A stretch of DNA of 64,000 nucleotides, taken from Pyxidicoccus parkwaysis. Its GTDB lineage: Bacteria > Myxococcota > Myxococcia > Myxococcales > Myxococcaceae. A program made the position numbers and the translations under genes. The notes under the pieces are model-generated. The model made no database searches. It saw nothing but the letters and a program-made list of their open reading frames with translations, and was not told the DNA's origin. Shown here piece after piece: positions 23,006 to 25,246 of this stretch (within the stretch, counting starts at the first letter, position 1; each line of letters starts with the position of its first letter). Where the stretch lies: the NCBI RefSeq assembly GCF_017301735.1, contig NZ_CP071090.1:10895001-10959000 (forward strand). Reading direction: 5' to 3'.

Positions 23006-23046
23006 CAACTAAGGCCTTAGTTGACGGACAACTAAGGTCTTAGTAG
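23006..23046. promoter_or_regulatory. Tandem BlaI-type operator palindromes
   Basis: Site 1 (23006-23023) is a perfect 18-bp palindrome, caactaaggccttagttg. Site 2 (23029-23046), caactaaggtcttagtag, is a near-palindrome. The centres are 23 bp apart, about two helical turns. They lie 25 bases upstream of the BlaI-like start, in the typical place for autorepression of a BlaI/MecI operon. Confidence 0.8.
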
Positions 23047-23070
23047 TTTGCTGCTCACGGAGGTACTCAC

Positions 23071-23469
23071 GTGACCAGCAAGCCCGAGCCCGAGGCTCCC
23101 CGGCCGTTGACGCCGGTGGAGCTCGAGCTGATGCAGCTCGTGTGGAAGCAGGGAGAGGTGAGCGTGGCGGACGTGCTGGCGGCGCTGCCGCCGGAGCGCG
23201 CGCTGGCGTACACCTCGGTGTCCACCGTCCTGCGGATACTGGAACAGAAGGGCGTGGTGCAAAGCCGGAAGCAGGGGCGTGGGCACCTGTACTCGGCGGT
23301 GCTGCCGCGCGAGGCGTACGAGGCGCAGAGCGTGCGCCACCTCGTGGACACCCTGTTCGAGGGCACGCCGTCCGCGCTCGTGGCGAGGCTGGTGGAGGCC
23401 GTGCCGCTGGCGCCGGACGAGGTGGAGCAGATCCGCAAGCTGCTCAAGGCGAAGGGGGGCAAGCCATGA
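23071..23469 (+). CDS. BlaI/MecI/CopY-family repressor
   Basis: 132 residues with the winged helix-turn-helix of the BlaI/MecI family (LTPVELELMQLVWKQGEVSV, then AYTSVSTVLRILEQKGVVQS and a C-terminal dimerisation helix). These repressors bind palindromic operators as dimers and are cleaved or displaced when a BlaR1-type sensor is activated. The start is a GTG at 23071. Its operators are the palindromes at 23006-23046. It is the first gene of a three-gene operon: its stop overlaps the next start by ATGA (23466-23469). Confidence 0.9.
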   Translation: MTSKPEPEAPRPLTPVELELMQLVWKQGEVSVADVLAALPPERALAYTSVSTVLRILEQKGVVQSRKQGRGHLYSAVLPREAYEAQSVRHLVDTLFEGTPSALVARLVEAVPLAPDEVEQIRKLLKAKGGKP

Positions 23470-23633
23470 GCGGCGGCCTCCGAATGAGCGTGTCCTGCGC
23501 TGGCGCCCTGGTGCGGCAGGAACGACAGGCCGTCAGTGCGGGTCTTCGGATGAGCGCGTCCCGCGTGGGTGGCAAAGCCACGTGCGTCGATCTCCGCACC
23601 CTGCCCATGGTGCCGAGGGAGGACGAGTCATGA
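23466..23633 (+). CDS. Small ORF between BlaI-like and BlaR1-like genes
   Basis: A 55-residue frame, MSGGLRMSVSCAGALVRQER..., whose start overlaps the BlaI stop (ATGA) and whose stop overlaps the BlaR1-like start (ATGA at 23630-23633). Exact fit on both sides suggests it is translated for coupling, or arose that way. It contains an imperfect internal repeat (SGGLRMSVSCAG / SAGLRMSASRVG). It is not clearly hydrophobic, and no family is recognised. A ggagg-like stretch (gagggagg) for the next gene lies near its end. Confidence 0.5.
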   Translation: MSGGLRMSVSCAGALVRQERQAVSAGLRMSASRVGGKATCVDLRTLPMVPREDES

Positions 23634-25246
23634 GCGCCGTCCTGCGGGAATTGGCCTCCTTCTATGTCGTCGTGGCGCTGCTGTTGCCCGTCGCACTGGT
23701 GCTCTCACGTCTGGCCTTGGCCGTCCTCTCCCGGCTGGGAGCACCGCTGTCCTCGCGTCAGTCCTTGAGCGTGGGGCGGGGCGCGCTGCTCCTGGCGCTC
23801 GTCCTGCCGCTGCTGGCCACGGTGGCGCACGCGGTGTCCCCCGCCGGGCCGCTCTTCACCTTCGAGCGCTCGATGGCGCGGCACGCGGGACGTCTCCCCG
23901 GCGCCGCATGGGATGCGCCCACGGCCCGTCCCGCCGTGCGCCCCAGCGAGGCGGCGCCAGCGTCCATCCCCGTGCTCCCCATCGCCGCGTTTGTGATTGT
24001 GGCCGGGGCGTCTGTCTTTACCGCTCGCGCGCTCGTGCGGCACCGCCGCCTGCTGCGGCGCCTGGAATCACTGCCTCAAGTGCGAAGCGTGGGCCGCGTC
24101 CGCGTGGTGCTCGGAGAGGAGGGCACCCCGGCGTTCTCCGCGTGGTTCCCTCGCCTCCGGAGCAGTCCCTCCGCATGGGTCGTGGTGCCGCCTTCCGTGC
24201 TCGGTGACGCGGAGTCGCTCCGCCTCACGGTGCTGCACGAGCTTCAGCACCACCGTCAGCGCGACACGCACCTGGCCTTCGCGCGCCTCATCCTCACGGG
24301 CGCCTTCTTCTGGCACCCCGCCGCGCACGTGCTGTCGCGCTGGCTCGCCTCGCTCCAGGAGCTGGCGTGTGACGAGGCGCTGGTCGCGGGCGGCCGGGCC
24401 CAGGCGCACGCGTATGCCCGCTGTCTGCTGCAAGCGGCGCTCACCCTTCCGGGAGCGCCGTCGCTACCCGCCGGAGCCACCGGCATGTCCCATCCCACCG
24501 CGAGGAGAATCGAAATGCTGTTCCAACCCCGTCCCTTTCGCGCCCACGGCGCCGCGGCGCTGCTGGCCGCGCTCTCCCTGGTCCTCCTTCCCCTGGCCAC
24601 GCTGGCCCAGGGCGCGGCGCGAGGCCGCACCGTGACGCTCGCCGAGGCGAAGGCGCTCGCCGAGTCCAGCCAGCCCGCCGGAGACCTGCCCGTGGTGGTG
24701 GACGCGGAGGTGGTGGAGCAACTCAACCGCCTCATCGGCACGGAGAAGGGCCGCACCTTCATGAAGCGCGCGCTCACCAACCTGGGCACGAATCGCGAGG
24801 CGCTGCTCGCCGGCCTCAAGGCGAAGAACCTGCCCGAAGGACTGCTCGCCGTGTCGGTCATCGAGTCCGCCGTGACGAACATGCCCGAGACGGACGGCCG
24901 CCCGTCGCTGGCTCCCGGCATGCGCGGAGCGGGCGTGTGGATGTTCATTCCCGAAACCGCTCGCCGCTACGGCCTGGAGGTCAGCGCCACGAAGGACGAG
25001 CGCCTGGACGTGACGCGCGAGACGCAGGCCGCCGCGAGCCTGCTGTCCGACCTGCATGCGCAGTACAGCGATTGGCGCCTGGCGCTCGCGGCCTACAACC
25101 AGGGCGACAAGAAGGTGGACGAGGCCGTCGCGAAGGGCGGCAGCCGTGACGTGTCCGCGCTCATGGCCGCGGGCCACCTCAATGACTACACGGCCACCGT
25201 GCAGGCAGGGCTGCTCATCGTCCGCAATCCGCACCTGCTCGACTGA
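23630..25246 (+). CDS. BlaR1-like M56 metallopeptidase fused to a lytic-transglycosylase domain
   Basis: 538 residues. The N-terminal half has about four membrane helices and the M56 zinc signature H203-E204-L-Q-H207 (LHELQHHRQRD), with a downstream LQELACDEA that supplies the third ligand. After a membrane segment near 305-325, the periplasmic C-terminal half matches a Slt/MltD-type lytic transglycosylase: catalytic Glu412 in AVSVIESAVTN, GVWMFIPETARRYGL, and AAYNQG at 487-492. In ordinary BlaR1 the C-terminal domain is a penicillin-binding sensor. Here the sensor may bind or cut peptidoglycan and relieve BlaI repression by proteolysis (inference). ATGA coupling to the small ORF. Confidence 0.85.
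   Translation: MSAVLRELASFYVVVALLLPVALVLSRLALAVLSRLGAPLSSRQSLSVGRGALLLALVLPLLATVAHAVSPAGPLFTFERSMARHAGRLPGAAWDAPTARPAVRPSEAAPASIPVLPIAAFVIVAGASVFTARALVRHRRLLRRLESLPQVRSVGRVRVVLGEEGTPAFSAWFPRLRSSPSAWVVVPPSVLGDAESLRLTVLHELQHHRQRDTHLAFARLILTGAFFWHPAAHVLSRWLASLQELACDEALVAGGRAQAHAYARCLLQAALTLPGAPSLPAGATGMSHPTARRIEMLFQPRPFRAHGAAALLAALSLVLLPLATLAQGAARGRTVTLAEAKALAESSQPAGDLPVVVDAEVVEQLNRLIGTEKGRTFMKRALTNLGTNREALLAGLKAKNLPEGLLAVSVIESAVTNMPETDGRPSLAPGMRGAGVWMFIPETARRYGLEVSATKDERLDVTRETQAAASLLSDLHAQYSDWRLALAAYNQGDKKVDEAVAKGGSRDVSALMAAGHLNDYTATVQAGLLIVRNPHLLD

Follow-up and report, generated by a model that had tools for sequence, protein, structure and literature searches.

The BlaR1/MecR1–BlaI/MecI pairs are the Staphylococcus switch for penicillin resistance, in which the extracellular sensor is a penicillin-binding domain, and BlaR1 is usually viewed as an antibiotic-resistance device. 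BlaR1 has a prominent extracellular loop that competes for the active site of the sensor; its protease cleaves BlaI at the Asn101-Phe102 bond, and the protein also cleaves itself, its sensor being shed by signal peptidase (PMC9834060). Bacillus BlaI binds a peptidoglycan dipeptide, which shows that fragments of the wall can be relevant to repressors of this family (PMC3305447). In Myxococcus xanthus, transglycosylases have been knocked out, with 14 such enzymes listed (PMC11444678) and two that matter for sporulation (PMC12265050). For a fusion of an M56 protease to a transglycosylase, we found no description in the open-access literature, a search outside which most subscription journals lie.

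Such a fusion is encoded in the 64,000-nucleotide stretch of Pyxidicoccus parkwaysis DNA analysed here (the window, C1:10895001-10959000), which belongs to a genome of one contig of 13.2 Mb with close relatives in Pyxidicoccus and Myxococcus. The locus shares with the BlaR1/MecR1–BlaI/MecI systems of S. aureus and Bacillus licheniformis a BlaI-family repressor beside an M56 zinc protease with four transmembrane (TM) helices, as well as a periplasmic C-terminal domain, identical active-site residues, operators that cover the promoter, and a predicted fold that matches the BlaR1 cryo-EM structure. It differs from them in that the C-terminal domain is a lytic transglycosylase and the penicillin-binding sensor domain is absent, in that the operator is AACTAAnnnnTTAGTT and no beta-lactamase or PBP2a target was found, and in that the BlaI residues aligned with N101-F102 are R106-L107.

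Architecture of the operon and of the fusion protein

The initial annotation had read the locus as a BlaI repressor followed by a BlaR1-like M56-transglycosylase fusion, and profile searches bear this out. The repressor combines a Penicillinase_R domain with an M56 partner gene and operator-like dyads at its own promoter, and the partner carries in one frame both Peptidase_M56 (residues 122-297, 54 bits against a Pfam cut-off of 31) and SLT (residues 397-507, 58 bits against 21). The NCBIfam BlaR1 equivalog profile gives the fusion 18.4 bits, below its cut-off of 400. The coordinates are collected in Table 1.

Table 1. Features of the blaI–fusion operon, in positions of the window
Feature	Position	Strand	Basis and remarks
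Operator 1, AACTAAGGCCTTAGTT	23007..23022	+	Overlaps -35 element; sequence; tandem pair in 27/27 genus genomes
Inferred sigma70-type promoter	23021..23049	+	TTGACG 23021-23026, 17-bp spacer, TAGTTT 23044-23049; read from sequence
Operator 2, ACTAAGGTCTTAGT	23031..23044	+	In promoter spacer, 23 bp from operator 1; sequence
Shine-Dalgarno-like GGAGG ahead of blaI	23059..23063	+	Sequence
blaI, BlaI/MecI-family repressor, 132 aa, GTG start	23071..23469	+	Pfam Penicillinase_R, E 9e-32; alignment with MecI structures
BlaI R106-L107	23386..23391	+	Aligned with MecI/BlaI scissile bond N101-F102; invariant in 44 orthologues
Lineage-specific insert between blaI and fusion gene	23470..23629	+	Orthologue gap lengths; imperfect repeats
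M56-SLT fusion gene, 538 aa, ATG start	23630..25246	+	BlaR1-like sensor protease joined to a lytic transglycosylase
Periplasmic loop TM2-TM3, residues 70-113	23837..23968	+	Model secondary structure, pLDDT, alignment
M56 active site, H203-E204-L205-Q206-H207 to E244 and D248	24236..24373	+	Invariant, 37 sequences; BlaR1 alignment
MltD-like lytic transglycosylase domain, residues 348-538	24671..25243	+	E412 at 24863-24865 invariant

An insert of about 164 bp splits blaI from the fusion gene in the source genome; the two genes overlap by ATGA in most orthologues, and inserts of 55-103 bp are found in three others. The insert of the source genome contains imperfect 33-nt repeats and opens a 54-aa frame ending on the fusion start codon.

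The model of the fusion, computed with AlphaFold2 on a 37-sequence alignment, has a mean pLDDT of 84.8 and falls below 50 only in residues 72-113, in the periplasmic loop. Four TM helices are predicted at residues 3-35, 42-69, 115-147, and 307-331, in agreement with hydropathy. On both counts the layout is that of BlaR1: TM3 and TM4 flank the protease, and the C-terminal domain, here the transglycosylase, follows TM4. TM4 terminates in a short stretch of small residues. By structural comparison, residues 8-292 match S. aureus BlaR1 (Z 17.6, 242 residues, 4.5 A) and residues 348-538 match Pseudomonas aeruginosa MltD (Z 19.6, 178 residues, 2.3 A, 28% identity), so that the C-terminal half, as first proposed, does model as a transglycosylase; MltD bound to bulgecin A is among its top matches. 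Sequence comparison with solved structures likewise pointed to MltD in the C-terminal part; in the protease part it gave a weak match to BlaR1. The domain, at first described as Slt-type, is MltD-like (family 1D), not Slt70-like. With MltD it shares, beyond the fold, the catalytic Glu-Ser pair and the AAYNxG motif; unlike MltD, it has no LysM repeats and belongs to a protease whose TM helices anchor it.

The motifs singled out from the sequence are all in place: HELQH at residues 203-207, the intact catalytic-type Glu, E412, in VIESA, and AAYNQG. Residues H203, E204, H207, E244, D248, E412, and S413 are invariant, together with further catalytic-site residues, in 37 sequences from several phyla, as is transglycosylase residue G492; Y489 and N490 are conserved in at least 90% of them. 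Three elements show little or no variation among 43 aligned Myxococcaceae sequences: the block HELQHHRQRD, a second block downstream of it, Q-E-x-A-C-D-E, and the pair E412-S413. The TM2-TM3 loop, which corresponds to the extracellular loop of BlaR1, contains a short conserved juxtamembrane motif in the alignment.

Spread of the fusion among bacteria

A homologue search over 145 genomes of the order recovered the full-length fused frame in 27/27 genus genomes and in about 50 Myxococcaceae genomes overall, at 57-90% identity; in the 43 aligned family sequences the fusion is kept with blaI adjacent, the ATGA overlap being present in most. An alignment-based scan of genome contigs extended the domain pair to MAGs and isolates labelled Bdellovibrionales, Oligoflexia, and Acidobacteriota, the last including Sulfidibacter, Acanthopleuribacter, and Holophagae. 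These distant homologues are 27-35% identical to the query, and almost all have blaI immediately upstream, HELQH, and the transglycosylase E-S pair. A few MAGs labelled Gammaproteobacteria also yield homologues, labels that we regard as doubtful because at least one (L163 in G148) belongs to the sampled phylum group of G152. Recurrence at 57-90% identity in Myxococcaceae and 27-35% in other phyla is far above chance. Judged from these sequences, the M56-transglycosylase/blaI pair is conserved across at least three phyla—Myxococcota, Bdellovibrionota, and Acidobacteriota—and is ancient.

Two separate genes, or a frameshift artefact, can be ruled out as the origin of the fusion, since the halves form one open frame in every intact relative examined; the two split cases (G057 and G067) appear to reflect breaks in the frame or ends of contigs. 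Weak matches outside the family were rejected as the same fusion, the regions read being standalone MltD-LysM proteins with the exception of the broken G057 fusion. One genome (G047, L232:3618-4300) resembles a natural knockout, in which operator and blaI are intact and foreign sequence interrupts the fusion frame after about 22 residues.

Operators and their targets

Two ACTAAGGnCTTAGT copies lie 23 bp apart upstream of blaI, the first touching the TTGACG element and the second in the spacer, and a similar promoter geometry can be read upstream of orthologues and of the deacetylase genes described below. With at most one mismatch, the source genome holds three ACTAAGGnCTTAGT sites, two at the blaI operon and one at C1:12402080, and with at most two mismatches every one of the 26 other genus genomes has a single tandem pattern, the source genome two. 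Across the family, the tandem AACTAAnnnnTTAGTT operator is present in 54/96 Myxococcaceae genomes, once in each except the source genome; its position before blaI was checked for the 27 genus copies and a further set of family copies. The exact AACTAAnnnnTTAGTT sequence is found solely at the blaI–fusion operon in 14/15 distant genomes, the exception being Sulfidibacter. In the Bdellovibrionota group, 34/291 sampled genomes contain the tandem operator, and 29/30 examined operator loci start with blaI, followed by an M56 gene in nearly all where the locus reaches that far. At one Bdellovibrionota site (L207, G578:C67:3862-3897), the tandem operator has neither blaI nor an M56 gene in its vicinity. 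Four Acidobacteriota operator matches at 20-bp spacing were rejected as members of the same system: they belong to other BlaI-M56 pairs, with no SLT domain seen in the partial loci.

The source genome has seven BlaI genes (L066-L072), each with operator-like dyads of its own, such as TTACGCGCGTAA and TACGACnnnnGTCGTA. Operators of the six others are unlike AACTAAnnnnTTAGTT, and the seven apparently constitute an orthogonal set. Tandem operators occur in the source genome only at the blaI operon and before a deacetylase gene, none preceding a beta-lactamase or resistant transpeptidase, in a search that degenerate or single sites may escape. From this distribution, the operator set appears near-closed, with the circuit controlling little besides its own operon, and a conserved pair of this kind is probably a self-contained cell-wall sensor.

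The third site of the source genome also proves to be a tandem pair, with a degenerate second copy, and the gene directly after it encodes a secreted polysaccharide deacetylase (L041:4106-5077, in region L041:4106-5118). In Sulfidibacter, an acidobacterium, the extra tandem likewise lies just upstream of a secreted deacetylase gene (L183:5348-6331). Both promoters repeat the blaI promoter geometry as read from the sequence, and the two proteins, both Polysacc_deac_1 members, share 42% identity along almost their full length. They resemble CE4 peptidoglycan GlcNAc deacetylases such as PgdA and Bc1974, a family assignment made by sequence and with scores well below the curated NCBIfam cut-offs for the named enzymes. 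These CE4 deacetylases are the sole other genes found right behind a tandem operator, in two genomes, and a wall circuit is favoured because their nearest solved relatives act on peptidoglycan. The link is patchy: close relatives of the source-genome deacetylase exist in only a few myxobacteria, homologues in other myxobacteria have no operator upstream, and a close homologue is missing from most of the 15 distant genomes.

Possible roles of the circuit

We consider it fairly probable that the operon is a one-protein circuit of the BlaI/BlaR1 type, in which an MltD-type sensor domain reads glycan strands and derepresses its own operon and, in some cases, a deacetylase of the wall. The transglycosylase domain would engage glycan strands of uncrosslinked or otherwise altered peptidoglycan and thereby displace the periplasmic TM2-TM3 loop, activating the cytoplasmic zinc protease by analogy with BlaR1. 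The protease would then cut BlaI near R106-L107, where the known cleavage site of BlaI/MecI falls. With BlaI lost, both genes of the operon would be derepressed, as would the secreted CE4 polysaccharide deacetylase in a few genomes. As these targets are its own operon and a few deacetylases, the output would mainly be more sensor-transglycosylase, with occasional wall-glycan deacetylation, and the circuit could be reset, BlaI being a product of that very operon. A mechanism shared with BlaR1 is something we infer from the analogy. Against this reading of the operon speak the cleavage-site residues, R-L vs N-F, and a deacetylase link known from two genomes. The initial suggestion of a peptidoglycan-directed circuit is partly supported, by the domain in sensor position, its fusion in all intact relatives, catalytic centres invariant across phyla, the operators, and the CE4 targets, whereas sensing and BlaI cleavage are, for now, what we infer. 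The operators, the near-closed regulon, and the spread over phyla had no place in the initial annotation.

A strictly conserved catalytic Glu is no less to be expected of an enzyme than of a receptor, and the transglycosylase could be the effector. The M56 part would then respond, by way of its own TM helices and loop, to something else, such as the state of the membrane or envelope, with autoregulation setting the dose of a dangerous wall-cutter. Invariance of this Glu and its neighbouring motifs across phyla is in keeping with such a role, as are operators that control almost nothing beyond the blaI–fusion operon and the fact that most M56 paralogues of the source genome, by reading, have no obvious enzyme-like sensor. 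We nevertheless find the effector role rather unlikely. The domain occupies the sensor position of BlaR1, and dose control would not require the enzyme to be fused to a protease in every relative. Moreover, other M56 proteins with HELQHHRQ, recovered by the same contig scan, carry a PBP2-type transpeptidase domain in the same place (L166:3907-5799 and L167:3680-5539); they share with the fusion the M56 signature and a blaI partner, and differ in their operators. Given these proteins, the transglycosylase is most simply read as a detector. Its full catalytic site, kept in all relatives, may then mean that turnover is the signal, or that the enzyme is also an output. The two M56-transpeptidase pairs are also, in their own right, possible BlaR1 systems of Gram-negative bacteria.

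The architectural parallel with BlaR1 can be taken further, the domain being to lytic-transglycosylase inhibitors—bulgecin-like natural products—what BlaR1 is to inhibitors of penicillin-binding proteins. A conserved active site would preserve inhibitor binding, and the match to bulgecin-bound MltD is in line with this. Yet neither the operon nor the genes that follow the operators include one for resistance, and the system is spread over many lineages without known exposure, which makes a receptor for the inhibitors themselves very improbable. Broadened to a receptor for such inhibitors or for the glycan state that they cause, answering with more of itself, the idea is still improbable; if true, detector, switch, and response would lie in one polypeptide, mirroring penicillin sensing by BlaR1. 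Least credible, to the point of being scarcely tenable, is that there is no switch and that protease and transglycosylase are separated by signal peptidase or self-cleavage and act independently. Both kinds of cleavage have their precedent in BlaR1 (PMC9834060) and the small-residue end of TM4 would suit them, but fusion, operon order, and operator geometry have been kept together over phyla.

A BlaR1-type protease with a wall-cutting enzyme as its probable detector in at least three phyla suggests that reading the wall is a general use of such proteins, with penicillin sensing as one version of it. Since the operators point almost only to their own operon and to one deacetylase in two phyla, the circuit is small enough for complete testing in a laboratory strain. 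The fusion is a candidate for peptidoglycan-state sensing in some Gram-negative bacteria, including several that belong to predatory groups.
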